Shown here: piece by piece, positions 14,455 to 21,611 of the stretch | How the letters are laid out: the number at the start of each line of letters is the position of its first letter | How positions within the stretch are numbered: position 1 is the stretch's first letter | Translations under genes and position numbers: made by a program | Notes under the pieces: generated by a model | What the model was told of the DNA's origin: nothing | Databases searched by the model: none | The model's input: the letters and a program-made list of their open reading frames with translations, nothing else | Source of the DNA: a virus | Direction: 5' to 3' (one strand) | IMG/VR virus record: IMGVR_UViG_3300037493_004375 | Span: 1 to 21,947 of that record | Length of the DNA: 21,947 nt

Positions 14455-16058
14455 GCCCGAGCATTATAGGTGCTGGCGAACGGTTTCAGGCTTCCCTTGG
14501 CGGGAAGGCCGACAACACTCCACAATGGGTCATCGACGCCCTACGCGCCCGCACCCCCGAAATCGTTCACGTAGAAAGCGTGGACTATATCGGCCACCGC
14601 GTTCTGGTCAAGAACGGAAACGGGACGCTCTGGGCCTACGTGCTCAAGCGCAACACCTCCGGCAAGGTATCAGGTGAGTCTCGCCTGCCCAACGTGAACG
14701 ACATCGGGGTCATCGTCTATCTCAATGGCGACCCCAAGAGCGCGGCCTGGATTGGGAGTATCAATTCGGTTGAGGTCCGTGACACCATCGAGAAAGATGA
14801 GAACTTCATCAGCGCGGACGAACTCGTGCATCGGGATTATAAAAAGCATGAGACCGGCTCGTACTGGCTCCTGGACAAGCTCGGCAACTATTTTATCAGC
14901 CTCTTCAAGAAAGCGGCCAAAGAAAAGGACGTGGCCAAGAAGAATATCGACCTGACCGTCTCCAAGGACGGCGTCGTCACGTTCACCCACTATCGCGGAG
15001 AGAACAAGAAAAACTTCGTCTTTAAGACAGACCAGACCGGGGCGTTTGTCATCAAGAACTACCAGGACAAGCTCGGCGTGGCCGCGAGTGGGTCCGTGCT
15101 GTTTACGCGACTTCTGCCCGCCCCCGTCGGGGGCATCGTCATACCTATGGGGGCAACCGTCGCATGGCCCGGGCATGCGACTTATAAGACCACATCGGCG
15201 GCGACCATTACCGAGGGCGGATTGTCCACCACGGCCCAGGTGCTCTGCGACATCGTCGGCGAATCCGGGAACGCCCCTGCCAACGCCATCACGGGGACCA
15301 ATGCGGTCGGAGTAGACTCGGTCAAAAACTCAAGCTCTTTTACCAACGGTGAGGACAACGAAATCGCCTTCAACCTGAGTGCCGACAAGGACGGAACGGT
15401 CTCGTTAGAAAACAACGGCCATCAACTTTCGATGACCAGCAAAGCTGGCTCCGAGGTATTCCGTTATCTGCACAAGAAGAAGAACTCGCTCATACAGGTC
15501 ACAGAGCTTGGAGACATCGTCCTGAACGCCGGGGGCTCATCCATCGCCCTTGATGCGGAGAGTTTAGACATCGTGCTTGGGCACAAGAGCGGGTCTCACG
15601 TCCACGTCATGCAAGACTCCATTGAGATTGAGACTGGCGACGGTTCCAACCTCAAGCTCGATAAGGATTCTGCTCAAATGTTCTGCGTAGGGAAAGGCCA
15701 GTATATTATGTTCGACAAAGACGGTGATATTTGCGAAATCACCGCAGGCAAGATGGTCGTGGATGGGGACACCATCAACCTCGGGAGCGGACTCCAGATT
15801 CCCCTGTTTCACCTGGGGTTCTCGGTCCAATACGCGGCCCTTTTGACCGCCATAGCCCTCGACACCCGCATCGTGACGAGTGGCGCGGGCATCGGCGGCA
15901 CCGTGCCCCCGTCTCCGGCTCTACTCGCGGTCATCGCCGCCCAAGGTCCCCTCTTCGCCACGATGGTAGCTCAGTATCAGACCATTCTGGCCAGCGCAGT
16001 CCCGCCTGTTCTTCCGCCTCTGAATCCCACAGTTACGGGTCAAGTGACAGGAGCTTGA
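14451..16058 (+). CDS. Central spike/baseplate hub-tip protein (OB-fold plus beta-prism) with an inserted J-type domain
   Basis: 535 residues, with GTG start 14451 overlapping the hub stop (GTGA). Residues about 37-110 (VHVESVDYIGHRVLVKNGNG then GVIVYLNGDPKSAAWIGSINS) form an OB-fold like gpV/gp45 spikes. Strand repeats follow at 160-210 (NIDLTVSKDGVVTFTHY) and at 303-450 (SIALDAESLDIVLGHKSG, GKMVVDGDTINLGSG) in the manner of a beta-prism. Between them, residues 212-302 are a distinct domain (ASGSVLFTRLLPAPVGGIVIP ending VDSVKNSSSFTNGED) that closely matches residues 79-176 of the J-like protein at 18574. The C-terminus (450-535) is hydrophobic and Pro/Ala-rich. It pierces the outer membrane or cell surface at contraction. 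No lysozyme domain is seen. Confidence 0.82.
   Translation: MSPSIIGAGERFQASLGGKADNTPQWVIDALRARTPEIVHVESVDYIGHRVLVKNGNGTLWAYVLKRNTSGKVSGESRLPNVNDIGVIVYLNGDPKSAAWIGSINSVEVRDTIEKDENFISADELVHRDYKKHETGSYWLLDKLGNYFISLFKKAAKEKDVAKKNIDLTVSKDGVVTFTHYRGENKKNFVFKTDQTGAFVIKNYQDKLGVAASGSVLFTRLLPAPVGGIVIPMGATVAWPGHATYKTTSAATITEGGLSTTAQVLCDIVGESGNAPANAITGTNAVGVDSVKNSSSFTNGEDNEIAFNLSADKDGTVSLENNGHQLSMTSKAGSEVFRYLHKKKNSLIQVTELGDIVLNAGGSSIALDAESLDIVLGHKSGSHVHVMQDSIEIETGDGSNLKLDKDSAQMFCVGKGQYIMFDKDGDICEITAGKMVVDGDTINLGSGLQIPLFHLGFSVQYAALLTAIALDTRIVTSGAGIGGTVPPSPALLAVIAAQGPLFATMVAQYQTILASAVPPVLPPLNPTVTGQVTGA
15084..15356 (+). other. J-type beta domain inserted within the spike gene
   Basis: Residues 212-302 of the spike protein share 'ASGSVxFxRxxPAPVGGIxIPxG', a central '(A)TIxE..xxxxAxV', then 'G..GNA.ANaIT' and 'GVDSVxNxxxFxxG.D' with residues 79-176 of the J-like protein. 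Confidence 0.75.
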
Positions 16059-16059
16059 T

Positions 16060-16323
16060 ATGCCGACACCAACCACTTTTAGAATCCCAAGTCCCATTGC
16101 CCCGATAGCGACTCCAGAGGTCGTGCTCCCTTGCGGAATCAAGGTCCCGAGCATCCCGCTCATACCCGACCTGAGCCTGACCATCACCCTCCCGCCATTC
16201 CCTCCTATTAAGCTCAAAAAGAAGGGGCCGCGGAAAAGTCGGCTGGACAAATACATCGCTCTGATGAACCGACTCAAAAAGCTCTGCAACGGCGACTGTC
16301 CGAAACCGAGGCCAGTAACATGA
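16060..16323 (+). CDS. Small proline-rich protein next to the spike (unknown)
   Basis: 87 residues, starting 1 bp after the spike stop. About one residue in five is Pro, arranged with Ile, Leu and Val (for example PSIPLIPDLSLTITLPPFPPIKL). A Lys/Arg-rich amphipathic segment follows (KKKGPRKSRLDKYIALMNRLKKL), ending with C-N-G-D-C. There is no signal peptide and no PAAR motif. The place directly after the spike gene is where PAAR tips or hub-associated small proteins are often found, and similar Pro-rich small open frames follow spike genes in other myoviruses to my recollection. A spike-tip or spike-sheath linker protein is possible but not shown. Overlaps the next gene (ATGA). Confidence 0.6.
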   Translation: MPTPTTFRIPSPIAPIATPEVVLPCGIKVPSIPLIPDLSLTITLPPFPPIKLKKKGPRKSRLDKYIALMNRLKKLCNGDCPKPRPVT

Positions 16324-18563
16324 GCGGATTGAACACGAGCAACGACACGCAGATAGGGGACCTGAAACACGGGTACAATCAGCGCACTTTATCTGAGACT
16401 CCGAGGCGGTACACATTCAGAATTTCCTGCGACCCGACCATTCAGGGAGCGGTGGATACTGCAATCGGGGGAAGTCGTGGTTTTGGACCGGGCGTCGTAG
16501 ACCAAGTGACCCTTAAAATAAATCCTCAGACCTATCGCTTTATGGAACCCACCAGACAGGGTGTCACCCAGACGGTGTCTGGTGCCTGGGTGGACTGGTA
16601 CGGCCTAGGTTTGCCCAAAATCAATCTTGCCGGAACCACGGGCTGGAAACCAGACCGCATGAAGCTCGCTACGGCTACATCTGGATTCGCCCTGCTCCAG
16701 GCCGGAATAACATCTCGTGCCCAAGACCTGGCGAAGACCGTGAACATCCTCAATAAAAACGACCCCAATGCTCCTACGGGTCTTCAAGATTTTATCTATC
16801 TCAGAAACCGAATCTTCCGAACCTATGCGACCCTTTTGCAGAAGGTCAATCTGAAACACGACCAGAAAATTCAGGACCAAGTCCAGTTGCAGTTCTTCGC
16901 CTGGGACACCGAAGACTTCTGCGTCGTGCTCATTGACCAGTTCGAGCTTAACCGCTCCATCGCCCGGCCCATGCTCTACGACTACAACATCCAGATGACG
17001 GTTATCGGCTACGTCGGCGACCGCGCTGGTGCTTGGACGGATTTTTTGTCGAAAATAGACAATCCGAAGGCCGGTCTTACCGGGATATTGGGCTCCATCC
17101 AAGCCGCCAATGCCTGGATGAAAGGCATCCAGGCCACGGTCAGAAACGCATCACTCGCTGTCAGCGAGGCCATCGGTAGCATCACGGCTCAAATAGACGC
17201 TGTGAGTCAGGGCATAGAAGAGTTCATGTCCAATGCCACGGGCATGATAACCGTACCTCTCCAGTTCGTCACTCAACTTACGACCGACATCCGCAACCTA
17301 GGCGACTCCGTGCTTGGAATTGCACAGCTTCCGGAGCGTTTCAAGAACGAGCTTCACAATCAACTGGTATCGACGTGGTGTGCCCTATCCGGCCTAACCG
17401 CATACCCAGAGATGTTCCAGGAGACCTTCAAGTCCCTTGCCGACGGGGCCCCCTGGTCAAACCTTAACTGCTCAGGGACTCTTGGGATACCTCCCAACCC
17501 AACCAACACGGACCCTGGCGTAAGGGCTCAAGAAAGCAATACGCCTCCGAACGGATTCTCGGGAATCATGGGGCCTACCGCCCCCGTGGCCCTATCTCAG
17601 CCGAGCCCGGCAACATCCCCATATCGTCTTTCAGAGGCCACAATTACCGAGGGGGACACCATCCAGTCCGTCATCACGAAGCTCGGTGGGCTCGACCAAA
17701 ACATCGCCCAGGTGTGGCAACAAATCGCCACCTTGAACAATCTGGAGTACCCTTACATTGTCCCCGACGTGAATTTCCAGACCGAGGTCAGGGCGACCGT
17801 GACTGTTGTTTTGTCAGGAACCCCTGGGACCATCGTCAGCGCGGGGACGCGCATCGGGACTCTGGCTATCACATCCAACGAAGACATCATTATATTCCGC
17901 ACCATCGTATCGGCAACTATCGGAGCGGACGGGAAGGCCACAGTAATCGCGATGGCCGAGAAGCCGGGCGAGTTCGCCAACGTGAAGGCCATGAGCGTGT
18001 CACAGTTTATAGACGCCGTAGGACAACCGACCACCATCTCCGGGGTCAACACAATCGAGAACCCAAACACCGCCGCAGGTGGTAAAATATACAAGGTCCT
18101 CAAGCCGGGGCAGAAGTTGAAGATTCCCGTGGCCCTGGATACGGCCAGAGAGACCGGTTACGTCGATAGGTCGGCGACAATAGACGAGAATCTGTTCAAG
18201 AACGACATCGCCCTCGACTCGAACGGGGACATTGTCGCAGACGGAAGGGGGGACATCCAGGTCGTAAGCGGGATAGATAATATGGCCGTGGCCATCCAGG
18301 ACCGACTTCGGACCGACAAGGGGGAACTAATCAAGCACCCCGGCTACGGCTTCAACACACAGCAGGTCATCGGAGAGCCCGGAGACCAGAACTTTCTGGA
18401 CTTCGCGAAGCTGGAGTTGCAAGCAACCCTCCTTGAGGACCCCAGGATAAAGTCCATAAAAAACATGACGCTCGCCAAGGACACGCAGGCCCTCTGGGTG
18501 GACATGAACCTCATCCTTATCGACGAGAAGTCCAGGCCGACCAACGCGAGCATCCCCTTATAG
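16320..18563 (+). CDS. LysM baseplate protein fused to a gp25/GpW-like wedge domain, with an inserted J-type domain
   Basis: 747 residues. Residues about 67-110 (INPQTYRFMEPTRQGVTQ then GLPKINLAGTTGW) are the beta start of XkdP-type LysM baseplate proteins, followed by a long helical part (130-370) and a Pro/Ser linker (390-435). Residues 438-485 begin a LysM repeat (TITEGDTIQSVITKL then WQQIATLNNLEYPYI), which resumes only at 589-603 (KIYKVLKPGQKLKIPV). The 100 residues between are a J-type domain. Residues 622-740 are gp25/GpW/XkdS-like (DIALDSNGDIVADGRGDIQVVSG, GELIKHPGYGFN, LELQATLLEDPRI). These two functions are usually encoded by separate genes. It should link tail hub and wedge, with LysM contacting peptidoglycan or baseplate partners. 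Confidence 0.8.
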   Translation: MSGLNTSNDTQIGDLKHGYNQRTLSETPRRYTFRISCDPTIQGAVDTAIGGSRGFGPGVVDQVTLKINPQTYRFMEPTRQGVTQTVSGAWVDWYGLGLPKINLAGTTGWKPDRMKLATATSGFALLQAGITSRAQDLAKTVNILNKNDPNAPTGLQDFIYLRNRIFRTYATLLQKVNLKHDQKIQDQVQLQFFAWDTEDFCVVLIDQFELNRSIARPMLYDYNIQMTVIGYVGDRAGAWTDFLSKIDNPKAGLTGILGSIQAANAWMKGIQATVRNASLAVSEAIGSITAQIDAVSQGIEEFMSNATGMITVPLQFVTQLTTDIRNLGDSVLGIAQLPERFKNELHNQLVSTWCALSGLTAYPEMFQETFKSLADGAPWSNLNCSGTLGIPPNPTNTDPGVRAQESNTPPNGFSGIMGPTAPVALSQPSPATSPYRLSEATITEGDTIQSVITKLGGLDQNIAQVWQQIATLNNLEYPYIVPDVNFQTEVRATVTVVLSGTPGTIVSAGTRIGTLAITSNEDIIIFRTIVSATIGADGKATVIAMAEKPGEFANVKAMSVSQFIDAVGQPTTISGVNTIENPNTAAGGKIYKVLKPGQKLKIPVALDTARETGYVDRSATIDENLFKNDIALDSNGDIVADGRGDIQVVSGIDNMAVAIQDRLRTDKGELIKHPGYGFNTQQVIGEPGDQNFLDFAKLELQATLLEDPRIKSIKNMTLAKDTQALWVDMNLILIDEKSRPTNASIPL
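17793..18083 (+). other. J-type beta domain inserted inside the LysM repeat
   Basis: Residues 492-588 show 'VVLSGTPGTIVSAGTRIGT', 'IIFRTIVSATI', 'TVIAMAEKPGEFANV' and 'ISGVNTIENP..AAGG', which parallels the order of elements in the baseplate-J N-terminal domain. The match to the other two copies is weaker than theirs to each other. Confidence 0.55.
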
Positions 18564-18573
18564 GAGAAAAGTT

Positions 18574-20052
18574 ATGGCATTTGGAGTGAAGCATTTTGAG
18601 ACCATCACGGGGAGCATCGTCCGATTTTTCTCCGGAAACAACAAGACGCTGACCGATTTCACCATCGGCTCTCGACTACGCACGGCCTTCGAGGCGGTCG
18701 CCATCGAGCTTGAGCAAATCTACTACCAGCTTTACATCGGCATAACGGACGGCATCGAGAACGGCGTCTACAACTCCTTCAACTTCTCCCTGCTCCAGGC
18801 CAGTTCCGCCAGCGGAAGCGTCAGGTTTTCAAGAAACACTCCAGCCCCGGTTGGGGGCATCACCATCCCGGCTGGAACCCAAATCTCGACTCCCGGAAGT
18901 TCAACGTCCCCGGCAGTAATCTATCAGTCCGCGGACACGGTGACTATCCTGGAAGCAACCACATACATTGACGCGATAGTCGTGGCCACCCTAGATGGCT
19001 CCATAGGAAACGCATCGGCCAACAGCATCACCGTCCTCGTCGGGGCTCCGTCCGGTGTGGATTCCGTCACGAACCCGAACGCCTTCTTCACAGGAAGGGA
19101 CCTGGAGACAGCCGATGAACGCCGCAATCGGTTCCTTAAATATATCGACAATCTCAGCCGCGCCACCCTGGGGGCGGTTGAGACCGCCGCCCTGGGTGTC
19201 GATGGGGTCGTGGACGCCAAGGCGTTTGAGAGCCCCAAGCTCTCCATCCTCATATACGCCTCTCCAACGCAGACCTACACCGACATCAGCTTTGAGGCCA
19301 ACCTGCCGAGCGGAGCCCCCATCGCGTGCCTGCCCCCATTCGTGAGCACGGACGACGCCCTCTACATAGGCTCAGATGGCCGGTTCGACGTCTTGCAGTT
19401 CGTCATCGACCAGGGCATGTCGGGCGGTGCTTTCACATGGGAATACTGGAACGGAACCGCCTGGGTCACGCTCCCCTACACAACCGACTCGACCCTCGCA
19501 TTGAGACAGGGCGGGTTTTTGACGTTCACCAAGCCGACCAACTGGCGAGACTCTCTGGTAAATTCTGTAAGAAAATTCTGGATTCGGCTTCGGGTTCTAA
19601 CCCCGTCAGTCTCAAGAATAGCGACCATCGTCTGGACCAAGGCCGCCCCACTTCCTGGGGTCATTCAGCTTGTGGCCATGAACGCCTCAGCGACATTGAC
19701 TCCGTCATTGAGAACCGCAGTCTCAAATGCGGTCGAAGGGTATCGAGCCGCCGGGGTCCGCGTTACAGTCGTTCCGCCATATATAACCACGGTCAACGTC
19801 ACGGCGAATCTAAAACTGGAGCCACTTGCGGATGCCGCGGTTTTGCAGGCGAGCATCCAGCAAGGAATCTCAGACTATCTGGCCGCCTTTAAGCTCGGCC
19901 AGAAGCTCTCGCTCTCTGAAATCATCCAGTTCATCGAGAACCAGAGCACGGACATCCTCGACACGGTTCTGACTTCTCCGTCCGACCGTATCGACGCATC
20001 GTATGACGAGGTCCTACGGCCTGGGACCATAACGGTAGTGGTGCAACAATAA
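18574..20052 (+). CDS. Baseplate J-like wedge protein with an internal extra domain
   Basis: 492 residues, with a strong ribosome site (AGGAGA at 18562-18567). Residues 1-78 are the helical start (FEAVAIELEQIYYQLYIGI). Residues 79-176 are the J domain (GSVRFSRNTPAPVGGITIPAG then GVDSVTNPNAFFTGRDLE), followed by 'TADERRNRFLKYIDNLSRAT' and 'GAVETAALGVDGVVDAKAF', all hallmarks of baseplate J. The regular sequence is broken at about residues 262-358 by a domain with 'LYIGSDGRFDVLQFVIDQG', 'FTWEYWNGTAWVTLPYTTD' and 'KFWIRLRVL'. It then resumes with 'PGVIQLVAMNASATLTPSL', 'VRVTVVPPYI' and the C-terminal 'LGQKLSLSEIIQFIENQSTD'. It builds the baseplate wedge with the W- and I-like proteins. The next gene starts on its final stop base. 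Confidence 0.88.
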   Translation: MAFGVKHFETITGSIVRFFSGNNKTLTDFTIGSRLRTAFEAVAIELEQIYYQLYIGITDGIENGVYNSFNFSLLQASSASGSVRFSRNTPAPVGGITIPAGTQISTPGSSTSPAVIYQSADTVTILEATTYIDAIVVATLDGSIGNASANSITVLVGAPSGVDSVTNPNAFFTGRDLETADERRNRFLKYIDNLSRATLGAVETAALGVDGVVDAKAFESPKLSILIYASPTQTYTDISFEANLPSGAPIACLPPFVSTDDALYIGSDGRFDVLQFVIDQGMSGGAFTWEYWNGTAWVTLPYTTDSTLALRQGGFLTFTKPTNWRDSLVNSVRKFWIRLRVLTPSVSRIATIVWTKAAPLPGVIQLVAMNASATLTPSLRTAVSNAVEGYRAAGVRVTVVPPYITTVNVTANLKLEPLADAAVLQASIQQGISDYLAAFKLGQKLSLSEIIQFIENQSTDILDTVLTSPSDRIDASYDEVLRPGTITVVVQQ

Positions 20053-21611
20053 TGCCTACGCCCCAAGACGACGTCTTCTCCGGACCGTCACTCGACTCCA
20101 AGTGGGTGTTCTCCGAGCGCACAGGGAGCCCTGACCTGGGGTATTCGTTCACCCAGAACCCCGGCAATCTGACCATTCACGTCAAGGCGGCGTCGAAGAA
20201 CGACGTGGTCGCGAACATCACCAGGCTTCTCCAGGACACCATACATCAGGATTATATCGTCGAGGGCTTGTTCACGACCTCCGGCATCGCTTCGGTGGGC
20301 CATGAGTCGGGAATCTTGATTGCCGAGGACAACACCAATTTCATATGGTTCGTGAAATCGTGGCAGTCGGGCGGCTCTCGCCTTCGTGTCTATAAGGCCA
20401 GCGGAGCGGCCCCCGTCCTTATCGACGAGGTCGTCTTCACGGACGACACCAACATCGTCCTGCGCGTCCAAAAGTACGCGAGCGACTTCACCTTCTACTA
20501 CAAGAAATACGAGGACCTTGTCTACACGCAGACCCCGACTACCGTGAGCGCGGCAGGATACGGGTACGGCGCAGGCACAAGCCGCTACGTGGGCATCGGC
20601 ATGGTCGCCGGAGACGCCGGGGCCCTCACGTTCGACTCCCTCGCCGACCAGTTCTTATTCCGGAGACTCATGGACGTCGCCGTGAAGGGCGACATCTACT
20701 TGAGAGTCTCAAATCTCAAGTCGGTCAAGGGCGATATACTCTTGGCCATTAAGAATTACCCCCCTGTCTCAGACTTCGACGTGAAACAGCATTTTGAGAA
20801 TCCGCTCAATACGCTGGTCTGGACCAACCCCTCTGCCGAGCCCGGTTATGTCAGCACGGTCATTACCCGCCGAGAAGGGCGGCATCCGAAAAACACATCC
20901 GACGGCACCGTGGTCTTGACGACATCAGTCCTAACAACCTTCGACGACGGACCGATGGTGAGCCGAGCCCGGCAATTCTACTCTGCTTTCGCCGTCTATT
21001 CCGACAAGACCACCTTCCCGGTAATGTCAGAGATGATGCCGGTCTTCGTGAACATGTACCAGAACACCGGTAAAAGGTTCTCTCGGATATTTAAGCAGAC
21101 ATGGTGGACCCTGCTCTACGCATGGTCTCGGGTTGTCCAAACCCTCGTGGATGTGGACATCGTCGAAGCCTTGGCCCAGTTCAACATCAGGACGGCCAGC
21201 GGCTCATTCCTGGACCTCTGGGGACGCCTGTTCGGCGCACGGAGATTCCCGGAGGAGTCGGACCGGCCATACTCTGACCGGATACTGAGCCGAGTCATAT
21301 CGCCCCGCACCGTGCCGCAGTCCATCATCGACGCCGTGCTGGCTGTTTCCGGGGTCACGTTCTGCGAAATCCTGGACTCCAGCTACGGCACGATGTTCGT
21401 TGGGAAGAGCTTCATCGGCCATCAGGGCGGCGGGAACACGGACGCGGACTCCGACTACATCCAGGCGTCCTTTGGGGACAACGCCTTCTTCTTCATCGTT
21501 CGCGTCAACATCAAGCAGGGAACAAACCTCAATCAGATACTCAAGGCTGTCGATGACACGAAAGCCGCGGGCACGCGCTACGTGGTCGAAATCCTTGAGG
21601 TCTTACCATAG
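20052..21611 (+). CDS. Lectin-like / FnIII / tail protein I-like fusion
   Basis: 519 residues, ATG sharing one base with the previous TAA. Residues 1-203 look like a concanavalin/LamG or DUF1349-type jelly roll: 'DDVFSGPSLDSKWVFSE', 'SVGHESGILIAEDNTNFIWF', 'NIVLRVQKYASDFTFYYKKY', ending 'LTFDSLADQFLF'. Residues about 254-322 (LVWTNPSAEPGYVSTVITRR then YSAFAVYSD) resemble a fibronectin type III domain. Residues 325-519 (RFSRIFKQTWWTLLYAWSR, ASGSFLDLWGRLFGARRFPEE, YSDRILSRVISPRTVPQSI) have the pattern of P2 gpI/tail protein I. P2-type gpI lacks the first two domains. A sugar-binding module would thus sit on the wedge. The lectin function is inferred from fold pattern; no catalytic residues are claimed. 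Confidence 0.75.
   Translation: MPTPQDDVFSGPSLDSKWVFSERTGSPDLGYSFTQNPGNLTIHVKAASKNDVVANITRLLQDTIHQDYIVEGLFTTSGIASVGHESGILIAEDNTNFIWFVKSWQSGGSRLRVYKASGAAPVLIDEVVFTDDTNIVLRVQKYASDFTFYYKKYEDLVYTQTPTTVSAAGYGYGAGTSRYVGIGMVAGDAGALTFDSLADQFLFRRLMDVAVKGDIYLRVSNLKSVKGDILLAIKNYPPVSDFDVKQHFENPLNTLVWTNPSAEPGYVSTVITRREGRHPKNTSDGTVVLTTSVLTTFDDGPMVSRARQFYSAFAVYSDKTTFPVMSEMMPVFVNMYQNTGKRFSRIFKQTWWTLLYAWSRVVQTLVDVDIVEALAQFNIRTASGSFLDLWGRLFGARRFPEESDRPYSDRILSRVISPRTVPQSIIDAVLAVSGVTFCEILDSSYGTMFVGKSFIGHQGGGNTDADSDYIQASFGDNAFFFIVRVNIKQGTNLNQILKAVDDTKAAGTRYVVEILEVLP

Follow-up and report, generated by a model that had tools for sequence, protein, structure and literature searches.

Can a domain of one baseplate protein come to lie inside other proteins of the same baseplate, and by what route? 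This question is raised by a 21.9-kb viral fragment from IMG/VR (21,947 nucleotides, hereafter the window), in which the same J-type beta domain had been predicted in three different proteins. It carries a contractile-tail module that encodes the sheath and tube, the hub and spike, a large fused protein, J and a second wedge-like protein, with a small ORF among them (Table 1). No match to phage records was found at the DNA level. The tail tube is at most 53% identical to Herelleviridae tubes, a likeness that indicates a tail of the SPO1 type.

Table 1. Positions in the window of the spike, fused-protein and J genes and of their domains.
Feature	Position	Strand	Evidence
Central spike (gpV/gp5-type) gene, 535 aa	14451..16058	+	PF04717 near cut-off, fold match, orthologues
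Spike beta-repeat shaft, portion upstream of insert	14943..15068	+	L014 alignment, predicted strands
J-wing (DII) barrel in spike, residues ~207-302	15069..15356	+	Pfam, HMM, shuffles, fold; missing from L014/L103/L104 spikes
Spike beta-repeat shaft, portion downstream of insert	15357..15815	+	L014 alignment, predicted strands
Fused tail-tube initiator + LysM + sheath initiator (gp25), 747 aa	16320..18563	+	PF23980, PF10934, PF04865; same fusion in L103, L104
LysM domain N-terminal half, ending LEYPYI	17622..17765	+	Alignment with insert-free LysM-gp25 proteins
J-wing (DII) barrel in LysM domain, residues ~486-590	17775..18089	+	Pfam, HMM, fold; L103/L104 same site
LysM domain C-terminal strand (VLKPGQKLKIP)	18090..18134	+	LysM tail in Pfam search; alignment with insert-free LysM-gp25 proteins
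Sheath initiator (gp25) domain	18222..18506	+	PF10934 4.4e-10; T4 gp25 Z 9.6
Baseplate J / gp6-type wedge protein, 492 aa	18574..20052	+	PF04865 2.8e-28; PDB phi812 ORF62 7e-22
Native J wing (DII), J residues 79-176	18808..19101	+	PF04865, HMM; aligns with wings of solved J proteins

The J wing in spike, fused protein and J

We compared the three proteins with the Pfam Baseplate_J family (PF04865), whose curated cut-off of 21.1 bits was exceeded by all of them: J (residues 69-219, 99.4 bits, E = 2.8e-28), the spike (residues 207-304, 35.4 bits, E = 9e-9) and the LysM/gp25 protein (residues 491-574, 24.1 bits, E = 2.5e-5). The LysM inserts of two related phages, L103 and L104, scored 42.9 and 54.9 bits. 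An HMM of the wing was then built from J proteins only, with the spike and LysM copies left out. It matched residues 212-302 of the spike (2.7e-12), residues 494-588 of the LysM protein (3e-4) and the orthologous LysM inserts (5e-17 and 1e-15), in agreement with the segment boundaries originally predicted. Among the ORFs of the loci examined, exactly four carriers other than J were detected: spike and LysM protein of the window, and the LysM protein of each of the two relatives; for this tail family, in these loci, the domain is normal only in J, as had been stated.

Comparison with shuffled sequences gave Z = 23 for spike against J (0/2000) and Z = 6.3 for LysM against J (1/2000). Direct pairwise comparison of the spike and LysM inserts reached only Z = 2 against shuffles, with no clear signal, and this pair is therefore linked through J and through profiles. 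Profile comparison with hhalign tied both inserts to J (E = 1.5e-13 and 4e-13), and the core motifs of the wing (GT, GN, N) are mostly kept in them. The N-terminal and C-terminal segments of J matched the J ORF only and neither the spike nor the LysM ORF. Full paralogy with J was ruled out for both proteins, as the DI helical bundle and DIII are absent and the wing alone is common. Neither mobility functions nor self-splicing motifs were found in the inserts; an intein-like or mobile-element identity was likewise rejected, no family besides the wing being present within them.

AlphaFold models of both inserts took the fold of a J wing. The LysM insert, modelled from an alignment without any J rows, matched the phiCD508 J wing (residues 87-181) with Z = 12.1 and an rmsd of 2.2 Å over 93 residues, followed by the J wings of XM1, A-1(L), Mu and phi812. 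The model of the spike insert matched residues 80-178 of A-1(L) J with Z = 13.2, from an alignment that contained J wings, so that its fold is no independent test; the LysM model is the cleaner one because J sequences were absent from its alignment. Both inserts also weakly resemble the beta domain of the galactose oxidase GlxA (Z 7-9). Together, Pfam, HMM, profile comparison and predicted folds confirm that the spike, the LysM/gp25 protein and J each carry the baseplate-J barrel, that is, the J wing or domain II. By profile and fold it is the same barrel as the wings of XM1 gp16 (DII), A-1(L) gp31, phiCD508 gp65, phi812 ORF62 and Mu gp47. Those are inserted in J; the window adds further copies of the barrel in its spike and its LysM/initiator protein.

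The wing is an insertion in J itself. In XM1, the wing-like domain II of J (residues 87-178) is inserted in domain I and covers gp12 (PMC10457771), and in A-1(L) the two copies of the J insertion domain (residues 81-180) differ in their contacts: one plugs a cleft of the hub, and the long tail fibre is held by the second (PMC10966104). The phiCD508 wing contacts the first sheath layer in a position that varies (PMC11948020). Since the J wing is inserted in the domain-I helices, J has to be added to the proteins interrupted by the barrel, which makes three (PMC10457771, PMC10966104); the original prediction had recognized the interruption of the spike and LysM domains and had counted only these two. 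The J wing is a known domain, and its presence in a spike and in a LysM/initiator protein is new within the literature searched, which covered subscription papers in part and contained no earlier report of either.

Other possible shared segments were noted. The C-terminal half of phrog_34452, a 175-aa phage family of no known function, matches the wing and may be a further copy outside J. An additional domain of J (EYWNGTAWVTL..., positions 19240-19623, J residues 223-350) lies C-terminal of the wing. It is missing from typical J proteins of ~350 aa, belongs to no Pfam family and has relatives in non-J ORFs of L005 (547-2082) and L006 (2611-3684 and 7440-8756); it is possibly another shared module. 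At its N-terminus the second wedge-like protein (20052-21611) carries a concanavalin-like domain (GH43_C2, residues 7-155), and its residues 352-398 match the J N-terminal region of phrog_6. Three consecutive ORFs of L103 (9408-12940) match this protein, one its N-terminus only and two its C-terminus, which suggests duplication and splitting of the gene.

Sites of insertion and relatives without the wing

Neither the spike nor the LysM sequence, used singly as a query, recovered a close relative, whereas a tail-tube alignment did. The relatives compared here are L014 (IMGVR_UViG_3300031772_000583), L103 (3300037225_000234) and L104 (3300032069_000001). The spike consists of an N-terminal OB fold followed by a beta-repeat shaft, the architecture of gpV/gp5/VgrG-type spikes. 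Its OB fold scored 22.4 bits against PF04717, slightly below the cut-off, which the L014 and L104 orthologues exceed; with VIA-align it matched the R2 pyocin spike, VgrG and gpV at Z 8-9.6. The tail tube of L014 is 82% identical to that of the window, and its spike, 49% identical upstream of the insert site and 38% downstream, has no insert. This alignment shows that the insert interrupts the run of beta repeats, as had been proposed. The L103 and L104 spikes likewise do without the wing. No further orthologue was obtained in a dedicated search, and the insert-bearing spike is known from one contig. Searching 50,697 phage records with the whole spike gave nothing at 1e-5; under relaxed criteria the matches were to its wing, chiefly in records whose annotation is baseplate J or wedge protein. 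The T4 spike gp5 resembles the window spike in having a globular domain close to the upper end of an OB-fold/beta-shaft spike. In gp5 this is a lysozyme between the OB fold and the beta-helix, whereas the window spike holds a structural wing, no enzyme, set within the beta-repeat run. Between the spike and fused-protein genes (16060-16323) lies an 87-aa proline-rich ORF of no family, with a conserved counterpart in the corresponding position of L014 (E = 8e-21); it is a candidate spike-tip or chaperone protein.

The 747-aa ORF joins a tube initiator (PF23980), a LysM domain and a sheath initiator (PF10934). The tube initiator and the LysM-gp25 protein are also fused in L103 and L104 and are encoded by separate genes, 13.1 and 14.1, in SPO1; the fusion may fix the stoichiometry at the start of tube and sheath. 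The LysM domain scored under the Pfam cut-off in the window and its relatives and was assigned by alignment with LysM-gp25 proteins. The same alignment with insert-free proteins placed the wing exactly between LEYPYI and VLKPGQKLKIP, where it had been predicted. In L103 and L104 the wing occupies the identical position, and the inserts of these three diverged phages are in frame and 34-43% identical; the L014 contig stops before this gene.

In a census of 37 distinct gp25-bearing ORFs (34 complete), the wing was present only in the group formed by the window, L103 and L104. Some 30 further LysM-gp25 proteins from this tail family are without it, and in most other gp25-bearing ORFs gp25 starts near residue 70-90, leaving no space for a wing. 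Homologues without the insert, the existence of which the original prediction required, were thus found for both proteins. A search of genome contigs returned Anaerococcus loci only, all without the insert. Weak matches between the LysM domain with its insert and Herelleviridae LysM-gp25 proteins, which had hinted at insert-bearing proteins in known phages, were examined and rejected, their lengths (229-246 aa) and the HMM census showing none to carry it. Two LysM-gp25 proteins of ~435 aa, in L041 (18431-19747) and L036 (11381-12682), have an N-terminal extension of ~230 aa without a wing and are another fusion of this protein. SPO1 gp14.1 and phi812 ORF61 (SPO1/Herelleviridae) similarly have a LysM followed by a sheath initiator and adjoin J, but have no wing and are not fused to the tube initiator. 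In A-1(L), the LysM connector gp16 is encircled by J helices, sheath initiators and the tube initiator and joins hub and wedge (PMC10966104), but it is a small separate protein without a wing.

Origin of the inserted wings

In a tree of the wings, based on about 100 columns and with long branches, the three LysM copies formed one group (support 89/74). The spike copy has a long branch (1.26) and falls with the window's own J (86/75); support is moderate and no branch is strong. Sister relationships of the window LysM copy with the window spike copy (p = 0.016) and with the window J wing (p = 0.017) were rejected, while a single clade of all four non-J copies was not (p = 0.12). Spike and J wings are only 37% identical at third codon positions, and the GC3 and composition of the inserts are similar to those of their flanks. 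The wing copies are old at the DNA level.

That the inserts reflect an assembly chimera or a chance similarity of barrels is very improbable. The source is a metagenomic contig and the spike insert was observed once, but the reading frame is open across precise domain boundaries, GC3 follows the flanks, the DNA is far from that of the phage's own J, and the homology is backed by the E-values and by three contigs for the LysM insert. A chimera is excluded for the LysM insert and unlikely as the source of the inserts in general.

The presence of three copies in three adjacent genes could also mean that one mobile module spread within the window phage to the spike and the LysM protein together, a history with which the surviving clade of all non-J copies agrees. 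We consider it improbable: the LysM insert is common to two phages with insert-free spikes, the window spike and LysM copies are rejected as sisters, and the spike copy is closest to the phage's own J. The data give moderate support to two separate captures, an old one in the LysM domain, common to at least three phages, and one in the spike, private to the window phage and probably derived from its own J wing. Given the distribution of the inserts and the tree, an old LysM capture followed by a lineage-specific spike capture is the simplest history. Of the mobile or duplicated module originally proposed, the inserted copies therefore stand, as two events of different age and not as one spreading element.

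Possible role of the extra wings

A compact barrel, the wing is itself an insertion in J, set between two helices. An ancestor of the phage group acquired such a wing in the loop ahead of the last LysM strand of the fused tube-initiator/LysM/gp25 protein and retained it; later, in the lineage of the window phage, a second wing, closest to its own J wing, entered the beta-repeat shaft of the spike. Homology and the insert-free relatives support these steps, as does the tree with moderate strength. By analogy with the wings of known J proteins, each extra wing may act as a docking tenon. With the usual three-fold symmetry of the spike and six-fold symmetry of initiator and wedge, which these copy numbers assume, six LysM wings would lie next to the twelve J wings, in the contact zone of hub and wedge in which J helices and initiators normally enclose LysM. 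The three spike wings would jut from the top of the shaft, brace the spike on the hub or wedge before firing and be pulled away upon contraction. We judge this combination, an old LysM capture, a later spike capture and extra wings serving as docking tenons, to be more probable than not. Because in known baseplates the LysM unit connects the hub with the wedge, and docking of J wings is to hub, fibre or sheath, added wings would add contacts there, and extra docking between the spike or initiator and the wedge or hub appears the most likely function. Known wing contacts make it plausible, as suggested earlier, that the wings would lock the spike and LysM to the wedge. Mechanically, a domain that projects sideways from a piercing shaft is odd, which counts against bracing of the spike.

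A broader version, in which the J wing is a general docking tenon of contractile tails and three rings (12 J, 6 initiator/LysM and 3 spike wings) couple spike release to wedge opening through wing-wing or wing-hub contacts, seems to us unlikely. Similarly unlikely is a passenger role, in which the inserts do nothing specific and are tolerated because a compact barrel with neighbouring ends fits easily into surface loops. This is a real rival chiefly for the spike copy, which is long-branched and known once, and most relatives do without either insert; against it, the LysM insert is kept in frame at one site in three diverged phages and the core motifs are mostly preserved. Slightly less likely still, the extra wings might bind the host surface or hold fibres instead of bracing the baseplate. 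The fibre-holding wing of A-1(L) (PMC10966104) and the weak likeness to GlxA would fit such a role, but the LysM/initiator and upper-shaft positions are central and not peripheral in known baseplates, and no evidence of a binding site was seen.

A central question of baseplate structure is how spike, initiator and wedge are kept together up to the moment of firing. A wing in exactly those two parts that must couple to the wedge, with insert-free and insert-bearing relatives for both proteins, provides a natural experiment. Core baseplate proteins, usually viewed as rigidly co-evolved, here swap domains within one gene cluster. Capture of the wing on two separate occasions suggests that it serves the injection machine as a docking part that can be reused.
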